Positions 3,529 through 44,224 of a DNA stretch of 50,381 bases are shown here, piece by piece (the first letter of the stretch is position 1; the number at the start of each line of letters is the position of its first letter). A program made the position numbers and the translations under genes. Below the pieces are notes generated by a model that worked only from the letters and a program-made list of their open reading frames with translations, did no database searches and had not been told where the DNA came from. The DNA comes from Negativicutes bacterium (lineage in GTDB: Bacteria > Bacillota > Negativicutes > Anaeromusales > Anaeromusaceae). The stretch lies in assembly GCA_009929485.1 (NCBI GenBank), contig SAAJ01000022.1:1-50381 (forward strand), written 5' to 3'.

Positions 3529-3693
3529 AATAAAAGAGCCAGTGATTCAATGAACACTTCGCGAAAATGAAAGATTTTTTTGACAGACGAGGAAGAAAAC
3601 GCAGGAATAGTGGAGCTCTTCCGAGGCTTTCTGACAAAGTCTGGCGAGAAAAGATTCATTTTGGCGAGAGGTGTGAATAATCAATGACTCTTT
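3529..3693 (+). repeat. Dispersed palindromic repeat, copy B (full length)
   Basis: About 165 bp with imperfect terminal inverted repeats: the left end (aaaagagccagtgattcaat) pairs with the right end (aataatcaatgactctttaa). The centre carries the shared core (3620-3638) and a gaagaaaacgcaggaatag block also seen in the 17.5-kb copy. It lies between the kduD terminator and the next gene of the sugar-acid island. The TIRs and lack of coding suggest a MITE or large REP-like element. Confidence 0.7.
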
Positions 3694-3711
3694 AATAAGG
3701 AGAGATGTCGA

Positions 3712-4476
3712 GTGTCAAGAAAACTGGTTGTTAACTTACTGGTTTATGCCGACTTGGTCAAAGAAGGAGCGAAACAGGCCGAGCTGCTTTCCCGTGTTGC
3801 CAGCGCGCAGGCGCAGGCTGCCGAAGTGCGCCGCGAGTGGATTCTGAATCTGCCGGAAGAACTGCCTGCGTTGGCTCAAGGGGCTAAAGAAAATGGGCTG
3901 GAATTGTTTTATTCGATTCCGGTGCCGCTTTTTGCAGCAGGACGCTTGGAGGAAGAATTATTACAAACCGTTTATGCGGAAGCGCGGCAGATGGGAGCGA
4001 CACGGATCAAGTTTGCCGTAGGCAATTTTGCGGCGGCAGCGGCGGAAGAACTGCAAAAATTAGCCATTTTGGCTAAGAAAAACGAAGATGTTTTGCTGAC
4101 CGTAGAGGGCGACCAGTCGGAAGCCAATGGCCGTCTCGAAGTGCTGCTGGGATTGCTGGAAGCCTGCCGAGATTGCGGCGCTCCTGTCTATGCGACCTAT
4201 GACGTAGGGAATTTTGTCTGGGTAGGTCAAGAACCGTTGCACAATGCGGTTAAGCTGGCGCCGTTTGTTCGCTATATTCATCTAAAAGATGTGGTAATGA
4301 CATCGGCAGGGCCGCAGGTACGGGAGCTGGATGCCGGCAGCATTGACTGGCGAGGCGCACTGGAATTACTGCCTCAGGACGTACCGGTAGCGTTGGAGTT
4401 TCCTTGTGAAGCGCCTGTTGATGAGCGAGTAGCGGCTATGCTCAAAAAAGTGAAAAATTTATCGCAAAACTATTAG
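3712..4476 (+). CDS. Sugar phosphate isomerase/epimerase-type TIM-barrel protein
   Basis: 254 aa of the AP-endonuclease-2/xylose-isomerase-like fold (PF01261). The likely metal ligands are visible: E in LLTVEGDQ (about 131), D in YATYDVGN (about 164), H in YIHLKD (about 190) and E in ALEFPCE (about 228). Family members isomerise or epimerise sugars and sugar acids. The exact substrate is not recognisable. Its place between kduD and kdgT suggests a step that feeds KDG or a related keto-acid into the pathway. The start is GTG at 3712, supported by AAGGAGAG about 7 nt upstream. The upstream spacer is filled by repeat copy B. Confidence 0.75.
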   Translation: MSRKLVVNLLVYADLVKEGAKQAELLSRVASAQAQAAEVRREWILNLPEELPALAQGAKENGLELFYSIPVPLFAAGRLEEELLQTVYAEARQMGATRIKFAVGNFAAAAAEELQKLAILAKKNEDVLLTVEGDQSEANGRLEVLLGLLEACRDCGAPVYATYDVGNFVWVGQEPLHNAVKLAPFVRYIHLKDVVMTSAGPQVRELDAGSIDWRGALELLPQDVPVALEFPCEAPVDERVAAMLKKVKNLSQNY

Positions 4477-4518
4477 ACAAATTTGAATTTATCAATTAAA
4501 ATAGGGATATAAATTTAA

Positions 4519-4530
4519 GAAACCGGTTTC
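4519..4530. promoter_or_regulatory. LacI-family operator candidate upstream of kdgT
   Basis: GAAACCGGTTTC is a perfect palindrome with the central CG typical of LacI-family operators. A LacI-family gene lies three genes downstream. It sits about 150 bp before the kdgT start. Confidence 0.6.
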
Positions 4531-4605
4531 GTAGGTCCGTTTATTTTAAAAGAAAGGGGTATTTGAAAAACAAAGAAGCAATCGTTTTTTATTTTTTTAC
4601 CTTGC

Positions 4606-4630
4606 AAACCGGTACACTAAAACGGTACAC
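4606..4630 (+). promoter_or_regulatory. Tandem AAACCGGTACAC-type motifs before kdgT
   Basis: AAACCGGTACAC (4606-4617) and AAAACGGTACAC (4619-4630) are repeated with a 13-bp period. A third relative, AAAACGATACAC, lies at 7927-7938 before the KDPG aldolase gene. The shared sequence suggests one regulator, most likely the LacI-family protein encoded between them, controlling both kdgT-kdgK and the aldolase gene. Confidence 0.5.
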
Positions 4631-4680
4631 TTAAGAGGTCCTTTTTGGCAGAGAGATGAGTTAAGAAAGGATGAAATCTT

Positions 4681-5664
4681 ATGAAAATTAAACAAGCGGT
4701 TGATCGAATTCCTGGCGGCCTGATGTTGGTACCTTTGTTCTTGGGGGCCTTGTGCCATACGTTCTTTCCGGGAGCCGGAAAGTATTTTGGTTCCTTTACC
4801 AATGGCCTGATTACCGGTACGGTGCCGATTTTGGCGGTTTGGTTCTTTTGCATGGGCGCTGGCATTGACGTGCGCGCCACCGGTACGGTGCTGCGCAAAT
4901 CGGGTACCTTGGTTCTGACGAAAATTGCTGTCGCTTGGGTTGTAGCGATGATTGCAGTGAACATGCTGCCGGTAGAAGGCATTACGAAAGGCTTTTTTGC
5001 GGGGCTTTCCACCCTGGCGCTGGTAGCGGCCATGGATATGACCAACGGCGGTTTGTATGCGGCGTTGATGAAACAGTACGGCAGCGACGATGAAGCCGGC
5101 GCTTTCGTGCTGATGTCCATTGAATCGGGTCCGCTGGTTTCCATGATTATCCTGGGCAGCTCGGGAGCGGCCAGCTTTGAGCCTCAGTTATTCGTTGGCG
5201 CAGTACTGCCATTCTTGGTTGGCTTTGTATTGGGCAATTTAGATACGGAACTGCGTGGATTCTTCGGTCAGGCAACGCAGACGATGATTCCCTTTTTCGC
5301 CTTTGCCTTGGGGAACACGATTGACCTGTTTGTTATCGGCAAAACCGGCTTCTTGGGCCTCGGTCTTGGCGTAGTAGTTATTATTATTACTGGTATTCCG
5401 CTCATCTTGGCGGATAAATTTATCGGCGGCGGCAACGGCACAGCCGGCATTGCCGCATCCAGCACCGCTGGGGCGGCCGTGTCCAATCCTGTGATTATCG
5501 CTACGATGAAGCCGGAATTTGCGGCAATAGCTCCGGCTGCGACGGCGTTGGTGGCAACTTCGGTTATTGTCACCTCCGTGCTGGTGCCAATGTTGACGGC
5601 GTGGTGGAGCAAACGTTCCGCTTCTAGCAGCGAAGGCAGCGACTCTTTGGCTAAAGGGGCTTAG
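4681..5664 (+). CDS. kdgT: 2-keto-3-deoxygluconate permease KdgT
   Basis: 327 aa, highly hydrophobic, with about ten predicted membrane segments. It matches the KdgT family (PF03812): the N-terminal [22 protein letters not shown] segment (shown in part), [20 protein letters not shown] and the late conserved [16 protein letters not shown] region. It imports KDG, probably by proton symport, across the inner membrane. ATG at 4681 follows a GAAAGG-type site. It is 34 nt before kdgK, so the two are co-transcribed. Operator-like motifs lie in the 200 bp upstream. Confidence 0.95.
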
Positions 5665-18019: not shown

Positions 18020-20071
18020 ATGGCATACGGGCAGCGGATAGTTTTTCGGCATCCCAAGGGGCTTCATACCCGGGTAGCGGCTATGGTGGTGCAGCGTTTC
18101 CAAGAACTCAGACAGCGCTACGGCAGCGAGATTACCTTGCGCAAGGAAACCGGCAAAGTAGTGCCGGCCAATAATTTAATGCTTCTAGTGGGCCTGAAGG
18201 TGCGCGCTGGAGATGTGTTATGGGTTGGCGCTGATGGCGCTGAAGCGGGAGAAGCTGCGCAAGAGATGGCTGCGTTTTTGGAAGGGGATTTTTCTTTGGC
18301 GGCGGCCCCTGCCTGGCAGGGCATGGATGCCGTGTTGCAGGAGAATGCCTTTACGGCGGAACAGATTTTTCGCAGTATCGCCAGCGGCTTGATGGTTACG
18401 GATCAAGAGGACCGCATTACCGTGTTCAATCCGGCGGCGGAGCGCATTATGGGCGTGACTGCGGCGGAAGTCATCGGTCGCAAGGTGTTCGAAGCTATTC
18501 CTGGTTCTCGGTTGCATATTGTCAACCAGACGGGAGAAGCAGAGTTGGGGCAACGGCAGTTGACAGGGCGTTCGGTGACGGTTACCAATCGGACGCCGAT
18601 TGTGATTGACGGCAAAGTTTGCGGCGCTGTGGCTGTGTTTGAGGATATTTCGATCTTAGAACGCGTTTCCGGGGAATTGCAAGAGGTAAAGGAACTAAAA
18701 GAGCGCCTGCAGCTGATTTTGGAATCGGTGCAGGACGGCATCTGCGTTTTTGATAAACAAGGTGTGATTACCTATGTGAATGATGCGTATGTGGCGATGT
18801 GCGGTGAGAAACGGGAAGACCTTTTGGGGCAGCGTGTAGGCGATATTTCTCCCGGTGGGGGGCGTAGTTTGATGCTGACAAGCGGCCAAGCGGTGCTGGG
18901 CAGCATCAGTCGCAAACGCAGCGGCGTGACGTTGATTTCGAATATTAATCCGATTTTTGTGGATGGCGCCTTGACTGGCGGTTTATCGGTCAGTAAAAAT
19001 ACGACGGAACTGCAATTGCTGGCGGATAAGCTGAACGAGGCGAATGCGCGGGCGGACTATTTGGAAGAAGAGTTGCTTCGCACCCGACGGCCTCATGCGG
19101 CGTTTCACAATTTCATTGGTCGCAGCGGCAAGGTGAGAGATTGCCTGGCGATGGCTTCGAAAGCGGCGGCGGCGCAGGCTACGGTGCTCATACGAGGCGA
19201 AAGCGGCACCGGCAAGGAATTGGTTGCCGAAGGGATCCATTATGCCAGCCCTCGTTCCAAGGGACCTTTTATCCGGGTTAATTGCGGCGCTATTCCTTCG
19301 GCGCTCTTGGAAAGCGAACTTTTTGGCCATGAAAAAGGCGCTTTTACCGGAGCTGTGCGGCGGAAGCTGGGGCGATTTGAACTGGCTGACGGCGGCAGTC
19401 TGTTTTTGGATGAAATCGGCGAAATGGATAAGACTATGCAAGTGAAGCTGCTGCGAGCGCTGCAGCAACGGGAGATAGAACGTGTCGGCGGTGAAGAGAC
19501 GGTGCGTGTGGATGTGCGAATTATTGCCGCTACCCATCGGGATCTGGAGGCCATGGTAGCTGCTGGAGACTTTCGGGAGGATTTGTATTATCGCTTGAAT
19601 GTAGTACCGGTACTGTTGCCGCCTTTGCGGGAACGTAAAGAAGATATTCCTCTTTTGGCGGAATATTTTTTAGAAAAAGTTTCCCGGCGTGAAGGGTTTT
19701 CCTGCCAAGGGTTTCAACGGGAAGCGCTGGAAGCGTTTCAAGGATACAACTGGCTAGGAAATGTGAGGGAATTAGAGAATGTAGTAGAGCGTATGGTGAC
19801 GCTGACCGAAGGGGTTCAGTTGGGCTTGGAGGATTTACCTCTCTATTTGCGCAAGGAAATGGGCGTGGAACCGGTTTTGCCAGCTTTGCGACAGGAAGAG
19901 CCGCTGTTGCCCTGGACAGAGTATGAAAAAAATATCATTGCTTTAGCGTTAGAACGCTGCGGCAGTTATAATGCAGCAGGTAAGGCGCTAGGTTTGACGC
20001 ATAAGACGATTGCGGCGAAGGCGCGCAAGTATGGCTTGGAAAAACAGACATCTTGGGTAAAAACGGACTAG
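18020..20071 (+). CDS. Sigma-54-dependent activator with N-terminal HPr-like domain (probable dha operon activator)
   Basis: 683 aa. The order is: HPr-like domain (about 1-90), PAS (about 113-222), PAS (about 228-335), AAA+ sigma-54 domain (about 360-595) and a Fis-type HTH (about 637-680). In the AAA+ part GESGTGKE (Walker A, near 393), GAFTGA (near 441) and LFLDEIGEM (Walker B) are intact, so it should open sigma-54 complexes. The HPr part keeps the phosphorylatable His in GLHTRVA but has lost the Pro and the regulatory Ser region of true HPr. It could therefore sense PTS phosphorylation state. The next genes are dhaKLM-ptsHI behind a sigma-54 promoter, so it is a functional counterpart of DhaR, with HPr in place of GAF. 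Confidence 0.92.
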
Positions 20072-40455: not shown

Positions 40456-40494
40456 GCGAGTAGCATAAAAGCATAGGAAAGTCTAAGGGTATGG

Positions 40495-40537
40495 AAAGAA
40501 TTGTCTTTGGCTAAACAAAGGCAGTTCTTTCTTTTTT
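40495..40537 (+). terminator. Intrinsic terminator of the feo unit
   Basis: AAAGAATTGTCTTTG pairs imperfectly with CAAAGGCAGTTCTTT, followed by CTTTTTTATA. It closes the feoA-feoB-mini-protein transcript. Confidence 0.8.
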
Positions 40538-40612: not shown

Positions 40613-40641
40613 TTGAATAATGGTTTTAAAAGTAGTATAAT
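40613..40641 (+). promoter_or_regulatory. Promoter of the [FeFe] hydrogenase operon
   Basis: TTGAAT (40613-40618) and TATAAT (40636-40641) with a 17-nt spacer. Transcription should start near 40648, about 43 nt before the start codon. Confidence 0.65.
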
Positions 40642-40690: not shown

Positions 40691-42205
40691 ATGGGCGCAA
40701 AGAATAGCACTTCATTTTCAAGACGAAATTTTTTACGCCTCTGTGGTCTGGGGGTAACGGCAGGAGCGCTAGGAAGCGCCGGCTGCGGTCATGAAGCAGT
40801 AAGCGGACGGGGGTGGCTGCCGACGCAGTATCGGCAGCCAGCGACCGCTTTGGCTGCCTTGCGGGGCCGTGTGTCACTGGAAGAAGAAGATCCGGCCTTG
40901 TGCCGTGATGATCGCAAATGCATTCTTTGCGGCCAATGTCTGCAGGTCTGCCGGGATGTGCAGACTGTATATGGTCAATACGATCTGCCTGTGCGTGATG
41001 CGGCTATTTGCGTGCATTGCGGGCAGTGCGCCCTTTACTGTCCGACTGGCGCTATCCGGGAAAAGGATGATACAAAGCGCGTTCAAGAGGCGCTGGCGGA
41101 TAAAAGCCGGCAAACTGTGATTCAATTGGCGCCGGCGACGCGCGTGTCCCTTGGCGAAGCCTTTGGACTTGCCCCGGGGAGTATTACGGCGCAGCAGCAT
41201 GTGGCGGCGTGGCGGCAAGGCGGCGCGACGGCTGTGTTTGACACGGCTTTTGCCGCCGATGTGACGGTGTGGGAAGAGGCGGCGGAGTTTTTGCATCGTT
41301 GGGAAAAAGGAGCGCTGCCTCATTTTACCTCCTGCTGTCCGGCATGGGTGAAGTTTTGCGAGTATTTTTACCCTCAATGGCTGCCTCGATTGTCTACCGT
41401 TAAATCGCCGCAGCAAATACTGGGAACGTTGCTGAAATCCGAGTATGGAAAAAACTATGGCTTGCGGCCCAAGGATATTTTTTCTGTAGCGGTAATGCCT
41501 TGTACTGCGAAAAAGTTTGAATGCTTGCGCCAAAAAGAAGCCTCCGGCTTGCAGGCGGTAGACGCCGTGCTGACCGTGCGGGAAGCGGCGGCTTTGTTTC
41601 AGCGACAAGGTGTAACAGTACCCTCGTTAGCGCCGCGTGAATTTGACGAGCCTTTTGGCGTCGCCAGCGGCGGCGGCCGCATTTTTGGCGCTCGGGGCGG
41701 CGTAAGTGAAGCGGTGGCGCGCAGCCTCTGGCGGCAGGGAGCAGGGGAAGATTTGCCTCCAGAAGCGCTGCAATGGCGTCAGCGAGAGGATTTGAAAGGA
41801 CTGCGGGAAGCGAAGCTGGCTCTGCCGCATGGAAGGACGCTCCGTCTCGCTGCGGCGCAAGGTCTGGGGCAAGCGCGGGTCATGATGGAAGCGCTGCAAA
41901 GCGGTCAAGGAAGCTGGGACTTTATTGAGGTGATGGCTTGTCCCGGAGGCTGTGTTGGGGGCGGCGGTCAGCCGTTGAGCCAATTGCCGCCTACCGAAGA
42001 AGGGCGACAGGCGCGCATCGCCGCTATGCGGGCGCAGGATCGGCAGGATCTGCGTTCCAGTCATGAAAGCCGGGAGGCCCGGAACGTATATGAGACATTT
42101 TTAGGCGAGCCCTGCGGCGAAAAAGCGGAAGCGTTGCTGCATACCTCGTTTCAAGATCGACATCAGGCATTTGCTGCTAAGGCGCAGCCGGAAAGGAGGA
42201 TATGA
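40691..42205 (+). CDS. Tat-exported [FeFe] hydrogenase catalytic subunit
   Basis: 504 aa. A twin-arginine signal (SRRNFLRLCG at about 9-18, then a hydrophobic stretch) is followed by a ferredoxin-like part with CxxCxxCxxxC sets (CILCGQCLQVC and CVHCGQCALYC). The H-cluster domain carries all three motifs: TSCCPAW (near 213), MPCTAKKFE (near 268) and ACPGGCVGGGGQP (near 415). Iron and proton-transfer Cys are intact, so it should be active. A Cys after the signal (GSAGC) might even make it a lipoprotein, but the lipobox is poor. The start at 40691 is chosen because GGGAG lies inside the longer GTG-started frame (40670). Genes for a HybA-like and a HybB-like protein follow, so it is probably a periplasmic respiratory hydrogenase. 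Confidence 0.93.
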   Translation: MGAKNSTSFSRRNFLRLCGLGVTAGALGSAGCGHEAVSGRGWLPTQYRQPATALAALRGRVSLEEEDPALCRDDRKCILCGQCLQVCRDVQTVYGQYDLPVRDAAICVHCGQCALYCPTGAIREKDDTKRVQEALADKSRQTVIQLAPATRVSLGEAFGLAPGSITAQQHVAAWRQGGATAVFDTAFAADVTVWEEAAEFLHRWEKGALPHFTSCCPAWVKFCEYFYPQWLPRLSTVKSPQQILGTLLKSEYGKNYGLRPKDIFSVAVMPCTAKKFECLRQKEASGLQAVDAVLTVREAAALFQRQGVTVPSLAPREFDEPFGVASGGGRIFGARGGVSEAVARSLWRQGAGEDLPPEALQWRQREDLKGLREAKLALPHGRTLRLAAAQGLGQARVMMEALQSGQGSWDFIEVMACPGGCVGGGGQPLSQLPPTEEGRQARIAAMRAQDRQDLRSSHESREARNVYETFLGEPCGEKAEALLHTSFQDRHQAFAAKAQPERRI

Positions 42206-42984
42206 TGCCGAAAAGCGTATTAGTAGATGTGACGCGCTGTATTGGCTGCGGAGCCTGTACTGTGGCATGCAAGCTGTGGAACGGCCTGGTTTACGACGAG
42301 CAGGTTCCCCACAGCGGTTCCAAGGCGCAGCTAAACGAGCGCAATTGGACGATTTTGGAGAAACGCCAGGTAAACGGGAGTCAGCGGCGGTATGTGAAAA
42401 AGCAGTGTATGCATTGCCTGGAACCGGCGTGCGTGTCGGCCTGCTTTTCTAAAGCGTTGCAGCGGGATGAGAGCGGCGCGGTCATCTATCATCCGGAGTT
42501 GTGCGTAGGCTGCCGGTATTGTATGGTGGCCTGTCCTTTTGAAGTGCCCAAATATGAGTGGGGCAAGCAAATTCCGTTGGTGGCTAAGTGCCAGTTTTGT
42601 TCGTCTAAGCTAGCTGCGGGAGAGGCGCCTGCTTGTACCGGCGCTTGTCCGACACAGGCTCTCTTATATGGAGAGCGCTCAGAGTTGTTGGCTGAGGCGC
42701 ATCGTCGCTTGCAAAATGGTTCTTATGTGCCCCAGGTATATGGCGAAAAGGAAATCGGCGGTACTTCTTGGCTATATCTTTCGGATGTACCTTTTGCGCA
42801 GCTTGGTTTTCCGGAAAAGTTGGGCGAAAAAAGCTTGCCTGCGTATACACAGGGATTTTTGTCGCAGACTCCATGGCTGGCTGTAGGCTGGGGCGGCTTT
42901 TTGGCAGGCATGTCCTGGTATACGCGGCGTCGGCGGCGTCTGAAAGACGAAGACAAGGAAGGCGGCGAAGAAGATGAAAGTTAA
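42202..42984 (+). CDS. HybA-like 4Fe-4S ferredoxin subunit with C-terminal anchor
   Basis: 260 aa. Four Cys sets of the DMSO-reductase/HybA type are present: CIGCGACTVACK (about 12-23), CMHCLEPACVSAC, CVGCRYCMVACP and CQFCSSKLA...CTGACP. A single hydrophobic segment at about 223-240 is followed by RRRRR, giving an N-outside anchor. There is no signal peptide of its own, so it probably travels with the Tat-signal hydrogenase. It passes electrons to the membrane subunit. It overlaps the upstream stop by 4 nt and the next gene by 11 nt, and AAAGGAGG precedes the start. Confidence 0.93.
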   Translation: MMPKSVLVDVTRCIGCGACTVACKLWNGLVYDEQVPHSGSKAQLNERNWTILEKRQVNGSQRRYVKKQCMHCLEPACVSACFSKALQRDESGAVIYHPELCVGCRYCMVACPFEVPKYEWGKQIPLVAKCQFCSSKLAAGEAPACTGACPTQALLYGERSELLAEAHRRLQNGSYVPQVYGEKEIGGTSWLYLSDVPFAQLGFPEKLGEKSLPAYTQGFLSQTPWLAVGWGGFLAGMSWYTRRRRRLKDEDKEGGEEDES

Positions 42985-44158
42985 CTTGTTTGGCTGGAAT
43001 TTTACAGTAACGCCTGCACGGTACTTCCTGACGGCGGTGGCGCTGCTTGGAATTATTGTCATTGTCTTTCGGCTGGTTACCGGTATGGGCGCGGTGACGA
43101 ATCTAAGCGATGAATGGCCATGGGGGCTTTGGATCGCTTTTGACGTTCTCACTGGCGTTGCTTTGGCTGGAGGCGGTTATTCGACGGCGCTGATTGTGCA
43201 TATTTTGCATCAGGATCGTTACTATCCCGTGGCCCGGGGGGCCATGTTGACTTCTCTTTTAGGCTATCTGTTGGTTATGGCTGGCCTCTTTTTGGATATC
43301 GGCCAATGGTTTAATTTCTGGCGTCCTTTTGTTTCCTGGGGCCATGCGTCGGTGCTGTTTGAAGTTTTTTGGTGCGTTTCCATTTATACAACCATTCAGT
43401 TTTTGGAATTTGGCGAAGTGGTTACCGAACGCATCGGCCGAAAATGGCATCTGTATTTTAAAAGGATGATTCCTGTGCTGATGATTATTGGCGTCGTGCT
43501 GCCCACGCTGCACCAATCGTCATTAGGAGCGCTTTTCTTGATCGCCGTACACAAGGTGTATCCTTTGTGGTGGTCCGAATGGCTGCCTGCATATTTTTTG
43601 CTGTCGTCCTTTTTTGTGGGCCCGGCGATGGTATGCGTGGAGTCCATCTTGTCCGGCCGCGTGTTTCGTCATCCGGTGCCGCTCCATGTTTTGCGCGGCT
43701 TAGCTTACATTGGCGGCGTGATGATGTTTTTGTACCTCTTGCTGAAGGTGCATGATTTTACGGTGCGTGGTTTGTGGCCGCTGGTATTTCAGGGGAATTT
43801 GCAGAGCTGGTTTTTCTTTTTCGAAATGGGGCTGTGCCTTTGCTTGCCCTTGGGCATTCTTTTTACCCTTTGGGGGCGTACAAAGAACGGCCTTCTGACT
43901 TACGGCGTACTAACCAGCCTAGGAGTCATCATGAACCGCCTGAATACGGCGATTACCGCAATGGTCATGGAAGGGAAAAGCTTGTATTTTCCGTCGATCT
44001 GGGAAATTATTGTCAGTGCGGCGCTGTTGGCGATGGGCTGTTTGTTGTACTGCTTTATTGTGGAGAATTTTTATATTTTAGACTATAAGCCGAAAGCGGA
44101 CAAAGAAAAAGTTCCAATGCAGCATCGTCTGGCCGAGGCGGAACTGGAGAATCATTAA
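42974..44158 (+). CDS. NrfD/HybB-like membrane subunit
   Basis: 394 aa with about ten transmembrane segments. It resembles the NrfD/PsrC/HybB family of quinone-reactive subunits, with the first-helix region ending in SDEWPWGLWIAFDVLTGVALAGG (shown in part). It should exchange electrons with menaquinone from the ferredoxin subunit. With the two preceding genes it forms a three-part electron path from H2 to quinone, or the reverse. It is the last gene of the operon. No maturation genes (hydE, hydF, hydG) are nearby. Confidence 0.92.
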   Translation: MKVNLFGWNFTVTPARYFLTAVALLGIIVIVFRLVTGMGAVTNLSDEWPWGLWIAFDVLTGVALAGGGYSTALIVHILHQDRYYPVARGAMLTSLLGYLLVMAGLFLDIGQWFNFWRPFVSWGHASVLFEVFWCVSIYTTIQFLEFGEVVTERIGRKWHLYFKRMIPVLMIIGVVLPTLHQSSLGALFLIAVHKVYPLWWSEWLPAYFLLSSFFVGPAMVCVESILSGRVFRHPVPLHVLRGLAYIGGVMMFLYLLLKVHDFTVRGLWPLVFQGNLQSWFFFFEMGLCLCLPLGILFTLWGRTKNGLLTYGVLTSLGVIMNRLNTAITAMVMEGKSLYFPSIWEIIVSAALLAMGCLLYCFIVENFYILDYKPKADKEKVPMQHRLAEAELENH

Positions 44159-44197: not shown

Positions 44198-44224
44198 AGG
44201 GGCTCCATTAGGAGCCCTATTTTG
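44198..44224 (+). terminator. Intrinsic terminator of the hydrogenase operon
   Basis: GGGCTCC-ATTA-GGAGCCC (44200-44217) followed by TATTTTG. Confidence 0.85.

Follow-up and report, generated by a model that had tools for sequence, protein, structure and literature searches.

Three-gene [FeFe] hydrogenases whose catalytic subunit carries a twin-arginine translocation (Tat) signal were described in genome papers of 2012-2014 on Desulfotomaculum ruminis, nigrificans and gibsoniae (PMC3569383, PMC4149029, PMC4148979). Two copies each occur in D. nigrificans and D. carboxydivorans; these combine a Tat-bearing catalytic subunit with a membrane subunit of ten helices and resemble extracellular formate dehydrogenase (PMC4149029), while the enzymes of D. 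ruminis and D. gibsoniae are membrane-associated three-gene Tat [FeFe] hydrogenases (PMC3569383, PMC4148979). Sporomusa ovata HydA2B2C2 and Syntrophomonas wolfei HYD-2 are likewise exported and thought to be quinone-linked (PMC9430772, PMC3582634). Here, we analyzed the hydABC locus at positions 40691-44158 of a 50,381-nucleotide contig (SAAJ01000022.1, assembly GCA_009929485.1) from a Negativicutes bacterium of the Anaeromusaceae; this whole stretch is called the window. A preliminary description of the locus had implied novelty, which does not survive the Desulfotomaculum reports and is further reduced by the exported, quinone-linked enzyme with cytochrome b known in S. ovata. No biochemical study of the Tat-[FeFe] HydABC type was found in the open-licence papers searched.

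We consider it likely, with a probability of about 0.8, that HydABC acts as a menaquinone-linked [FeFe] hydrogenase, bound to the membrane on its extracytoplasmic side and working mainly in H2 uptake. Sequence provided the gene content, motifs and conservation of the locus, together with the maturases, TatC and quinone pathway of its genome. Three overlapping genes fill positions 40691-44158 as one unit: hydA (40691..42205, + strand, as for all features below), encoding a 504-residue [FeFe] hydrogenase catalytic subunit with fused large and small subunits; hydB (42202..42984), encoding a four-cluster ferredoxin of the HmcB/HybA/FdnH type without a signal peptide; and hydC (42974..44158), encoding an NrfD-family, HybB/HmcC-like membrane subunit with 10 helices. 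The hydA stop overlaps the hydB start in ATGA (42202-42205) and hydB overlaps hydC by 11 nt (42974-42984), in keeping with the coupled, co-expressed unit proposed earlier. The hydA start was assigned to ATG 40691, preceded by AAGGGAG; GTG 40670 was dropped in its favor on the basis of the ribosome-binding site and the starts of homologues. Flanking genes are also conserved inside the genus, and beyond it hydABC alone remains together. Conservation of the hydA-hydB-hydC order across the class excludes a chance arrangement.

HydA contains two [4Fe-4S] ferredoxin motifs, CILCGQCLQVC (C77-C87) and CVHCGQCALYC (C107-C117), at 40919..41041, as well as H-cluster motifs L1 (FTSCCPAW, 41324..41347), L2 (MPCTAKKFE, 41495..41521) and L3 (MACPGGCVGGGGQP, 41933..41974). 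Pfam matched Fe_hyd_lg_C (E 9e-83) and a fused small-subunit domain, Fe_hyd_SSU (PF02256, E 3e-14, 42005..42160). Motifs and Pfam matches together confirmed two ferredoxin-type clusters and complete H-cluster motifs, both claimed from the first reading. TSCCP, MPCTAKK, MACPGGCVGGGG and all four [4Fe-4S]H ligand cysteines are as in group A [FeFe] hydrogenases. By CpI numbering, the proton-path residues C299, E279, S319, E282 and R286 are all kept as well. The HydA model gave fold matches to HydABC HydA, DdHydAB and CpI. As the AlphaFold models were of middling confidence (predicted local distance difference test scores of 65 and 68), no site-level claims were based on them. In the tree, Tat-HydA formed a single clade separate from the other [FeFe] hydrogenases compared.

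One ligand motif varies within the family. In L1, TSCSP rather than TSCCP was present in 21 of 57 HydA sequences, the serine replacing what is, by CpI numbering, the [4Fe-4S]H ligand C300; the window has TSCCP. Carriers of TSCSP were Proteus, most of the Desulfotomaculum group and one Selenomonadales metagenome-assembled genome (MAG) (loci L074, L075, L079, L083-L086, L088, L089, L091, L092, L096, L098, L099, L101, L105, L106, L108, L109, L134 and L135). The two forms vary among close relatives, and L087 has Cys. A TSCSP variant was previously remarked in Melainabacteria (PMC3787301).

The family-conserved twin-arginine motif SRRNFLR (40718..40738) backs the earlier reasoning that the catalytic subunit would be exported by a Tat signal. 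A lipobox-like SAGC (40775..40786) follows, with Cys32 as the candidate lipidation site; Ser at -3 is atypical. Among 57 relatives, 54 have a Cys ending the hydrophobic stretch after the twin arginines, mostly as AGC, SGC or TGC (a script counted 53, to which L070, overlooked solely through its start codon, was added). An AxA-like site replaces this Cys in two of the three exceptions (L091 and L134). Formate dehydrogenases that share HydB and HydC also have Tat signals, and these lack such a Cys and end in an AxA-like site. The frequency of the lipobox Cys in HydA and its absence from the formate dehydrogenase signals suggest that HydA is probably a lipid-anchored Tat lipoprotein. For the hydrogenase of D. 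ruminis, the Tat signal had been taken for an uncleaved helix (PMC3569383). In the HydA of a Sporomusaceae MAG (L050:5653-7179, the same as L076), RL stands for the twin arginine (ITRLNFLK) and the lipobox is retained.

The window's own genome encodes HydF (581 bits), HydG (662 bits) and HydE (374 bits), all above cut-off, which answers the call of the preliminary description for a search for hydEFG. TatC was also above cut-off (233 bits). Classical MenA is absent from this genome, and a missing quinone link was considered until the futalosine menaquinone pathway turned up: MqnE and MqnC scored above cut-off, an MqnA/D family protein is present, and an MqnP-like prenyltransferase is encoded near tatC. 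Elsewhere in this genome (L054:5473-7773, contig C2), a large subunit, a Tat small subunit and cytochrome b561 make up another exported [FeFe] hydrogenase, one of the S. ovata HydA2B2C2 type. This second enzyme, the fused small-subunit domain and the lipobox-like Cys had all been overlooked in the earlier sequence reading.

Family matches of HydB and HydC agree with their proposed role as quinone-type partner subunits. HydB scored higher against HmcB (278 bits) than HybA (222 bits) and has no N-terminal signal, its alignments beginning at residue 37 (HmcB profile) and 40 (HybA profile). A C-terminal hydrophobic anchor segment, TPWLAVGWGGFLAGMSWYT, lies at 42868..42924 and is followed by RRRRRLK. 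Of the first portrayal of HydB as HybA-like, anchored at its C-terminus and signal-less, the missing signal stood, HmcB proved the better match and the anchor segment was only weakly hydrophobic. HydC belongs to the NrfD family (PF03916, E 2e-13), as had been recognized, with its supposed HybB likeness (best NCBIfam match, 260 bits) about equal to that for HmcC (255 bits). Ten long helices were predicted. The only significant fold matches to the HydC model were the alternative complex III NrfD subunits ActC/ActF, and a HydC profile search against solved structures gave no match. HydC could be a mere anchor, and the exported hydrogenase could instead pass its electrons to solid acceptors or to other carriers in the periplasm. 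A lipid anchor might be enough for attachment, and in Desulfovibrio the partners of HydAB are periplasmic cytochromes. We regard this reading as very unlikely, as HydB and HydC are encoded together with HydA and are highly conserved, and no cytochrome was recognized beside hydABC in the neighborhoods listed.

Desulforamulus and its relatives encode orthologues of HydB and HydC downstream of a Tat formate dehydrogenase. This partner was identified by family profiles in L077 and by the same open reading frame (ORF) pattern in L078, L081, L100, L103, L113, L115 and L129; for L080 and L082 it was taken from near-identical tree neighbors. The HydB tree sorted by catalytic partner, with formate dehydrogenase-linked rows forming one clade (100/99), and the joined alignment likewise gave one such clade. 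The HydC tree did not. After removal of long and near-identical rows and a careful search, it required three changes of partner, and a single formate dehydrogenase clade was rejected (approximately unbiased test, p = 9.5e-11). An earlier count of five changes, from a quick HydC-only tree of 74 rows, was superseded. Because HydB and the joined alignment give one clade, we claim exchange of HydC only and not repeated swapping of the whole module. The simplest reading is that HydC was exchanged or gene-converted between hydrogenase and formate dehydrogenase operons, in which case the membrane unit must work with both catalytic partners. The modular swap first proposed thus holds for a molybdoenzyme, formate dehydrogenase, with which the module is shared; no swap with a [NiFe] hydrogenase was shown. 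The shared HydB and HydC offer a clean test case of one membrane quinone unit serving two unrelated catalytic subunits.

From gene content and the known biology of formate dehydrogenase N (FDH-N), hydrogenase-2 and the Tat system, we infer how the complex might form, be exported and lipidated, and conduct electrons, and in which direction. HydA would fold in the cytoplasm and receive its H-cluster there from HydE, HydF and HydG. HydB would bind HydA before export, and HydA would leave by Tat via its own signal, with signal-less HydB traveling along as FdnH does with FdnG. Cleavage and lipidation of HydA at Cys32 would probably follow, while the C-terminal segment of HydB would hold this subunit in place. 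Electrons would pass from H2 through the H-cluster and the two HydA [4Fe-4S] clusters to the HydB clusters, and on to menaquinone at HydC. The standard potentials of H2 (-414 mV) and menaquinone (about -74 mV) favor uptake, and in its usual direction the enzyme would most likely take up H2 and reduce the menaquinone pool, serving anaerobic respiration or redox balance. Reverse H2 release would require proton-motive force and very low H2. The same complex could nevertheless chiefly release H2, oxidizing menaquinol at HydC and reducing protons outside, driven by proton-motive force, as a means of syntrophic or fermentative reductant disposal. This we consider unlikely, as the potentials strongly favor uptake and other [FeFe] enzymes fit for release are present in the genomes. 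It would suit many carriers, which ferment or are syntrophs (Sporotomaculum syntrophicum, Anaerovibrio and Pelosinus), and a model of S. wolfei includes reverse electron flow of this kind, ending at an exported formate dehydrogenase (PMC3582634).

The arrangement of a Tat-[FeFe] subunit with HydB and HydC, for which a search across Negativicutes had been suggested, recurs widely. hydC was found in 38 of 300 Negativicutes genomes, representing 16 of 97 genera. A scan of named genomes returned 75 loci, 60 with hydA (some are cut by contig ends), from Negativicutes, Desulfotomaculum-type Firmicutes, Proteus, Telmatospirillum, Deferribacteraceae and Planctomycetaceae. Plasmid records held only distant [FeFe] hydrogenases (36-41% identity, matching from residue 46 or later). 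Maturase genes lie immediately 5' of the operon in Anaerovibrio (hydE-hydG-hydF-hydABC, L093) and Deferribacteraceae (hydG-hydF-hydABC, L120), which ties hydABC to H-cluster assembly. Gene order differs in L134. One Negativicutes genome has a tandem hydA-hydB-hydC-hydC-hydA-hydB-hydC (L051:6806-15778), and L045 has two hydC. In Telmatospirillum, hydABC is followed by putative hydrogenase genes (L117:8202-12935; ORF sequences only), and this region also encodes one further homologue each of HydB, which here bears a Tat signal, and of HydC.

Several findings weigh against a menaquinone-linked hydrogenase. HydA of the window's genus has the longest branch of the family (1.61), about 40 changes at family-conserved positions, and T335R within the conserved IFGATGG stretch. 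The window's HydB anchor segment is weakly hydrophobic (mean 0.89), compared to a mean of 1.53 in relatives (n=73). No quinone site was located in HydC, and no experiment on the Tat-[FeFe] HydABC family was found. HydF was not detected in four operon-bearing genomes, those of Proteus columbae, P. alimentorum, P. faecis and a Telmatospirillum MAG (L106, L108, L109 and L117; hydA at about 3563-5119), and HydG was not above cut-off in any of the three searched among them; the other genomes searched gave positive results. The Proteus hydABC genes are under strong purifying selection, with ratios of nonsynonymous to synonymous substitution rates (dN/dS) of 0.016-0.055. Three Proteus species thus keep the operon with no detectable HydF, so a known maturation route is not needed for HydABC to be retained.

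HydA of the window's genus might accordingly be a diverged non-hydrogenase, such as a sensor or electron-transfer protein. Its long branch, changes such as T335R close to the active-site stretch and the Proteus relatives without detectable HydF and HydG point in this direction, as does a score of 394 bits against NCBIfam TIGR02512, below the cut-off of 406. This miss results from the divergence of HydA in this genus, and the cut-off is a model threshold rather than a defining residue; four relatives scored 468-501 bits, above it. The H-cluster ligands and proton-path residues are all intact and the maturases are in the genome. Within the genus, dN/dS was 0.02-0.08, reflecting purifying selection. 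With a dN/dS of 0.055-0.076 for HydA itself and all ligands kept, the window HydA is not decaying, and loss of hydrogenase function appears highly improbable. Its properties may differ from those of its relatives.

The unit is parted from the upstream feoB region by a terminator-like hairpin (40493..40532; 17 pairs, then a T run). A sigma-70-like promoter, TTGAAT-17-TATAAT, was predicted at 40613..40641 from a consensus match alone, as was an intrinsic terminator-like hairpin at the unit's 3' end (44199..44218). Elsewhere in the window, 18020-20071 encodes a sigma-54 activator that combines an N-terminal HPr-like domain with PAS domains, shortly upstream of genes for dihydroxyacetone kinase (Dak1 and Dak2) and phosphotransferase system enzyme I.

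We tentatively propose, at slightly less than even odds, that these loci form a class of respiratory [FeFe] hydrogenases that is distinct and as yet undefined: a Tat lipoprotein on an NrfD quinone module interchangeable with that of formate dehydrogenase, spread by transfer over at least four phyla, biochemically uncharacterized as far as the papers searched show, and persisting in Proteus without detectable HydF or HydG. If true, that persistence would mean that the H-cluster is acquired by an unknown route or that the protein has another activity. [FeFe] hydrogenases are usually placed in fermentation or bifurcation. HydDB lists A1-A4 and no subgroup of this kind (PMC5037454), so a widespread outward-facing, quinone-linked type would alter how H2 metabolism is read from gut, rumen and sediment genomes.

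Compared with the Desulfotomaculum trimer (Desru_3431-3433, Desca_0940-0938 and Desgi_0926-0928, likened by description), the window has the same three genes, with a Tat-bearing catalytic subunit and two co-encoded partners, one with ten transmembrane helices. Orthologues of the window's hydABC genes occur in Desulforamulus at L074 and L086. The Desulfotomaculum papers describe an uncleaved helix or plain tat motif, whereas a lipobox Cys is indicated here; one calls the membrane subunit cytochrome b-like, whereas HydC is indicated as NrfD-family. The window HydA is also much more diverged. HydDB assigns subgroups by downstream gene (GltD-like, A2; NuoF, A3; HycB, A4; none, A1) (PMC5037454), and the HmcB/HybA-like gene downstream of hydA fits none of the functions described for A1-A4. 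The S. ovata and S. wolfei type has a cytochrome b anchor, with the S. ovata Tat signal on a separate small subunit, while hydABC has a fused small subunit and an NrfD-family HydC. Escherichia coli hydrogenase-2 (HybOABC, [NiFe] group 1c) shares the HybA-like ferredoxin, HybB-like NrfD subunit and quinone link, but its catalytic unit is [NiFe] and that of the window is Fe_hyd_lg_C, which places the latter outside group 1c. HybA and HybO have their own Tat signals; HydB differs here, as nothing in it corresponds to the first 39 positions of the HybA profile. In the Desulfovibrio Hmc complex, HmcB is the best match of HydB and HmcC matches HydC; Hmc takes electrons from periplasmic hydrogenase via cytochromes and has further subunits. 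The FDH-N type with an NrfD subunit (Desgi_1522-1524; L077, L078 and L081) has orthologous HydB and HydC and a Tat signal only on the catalytic subunit. That subunit is a molybdenum/tungsten enzyme, and its AxA-like Tat signal has no Cys, unlike that of HydA.

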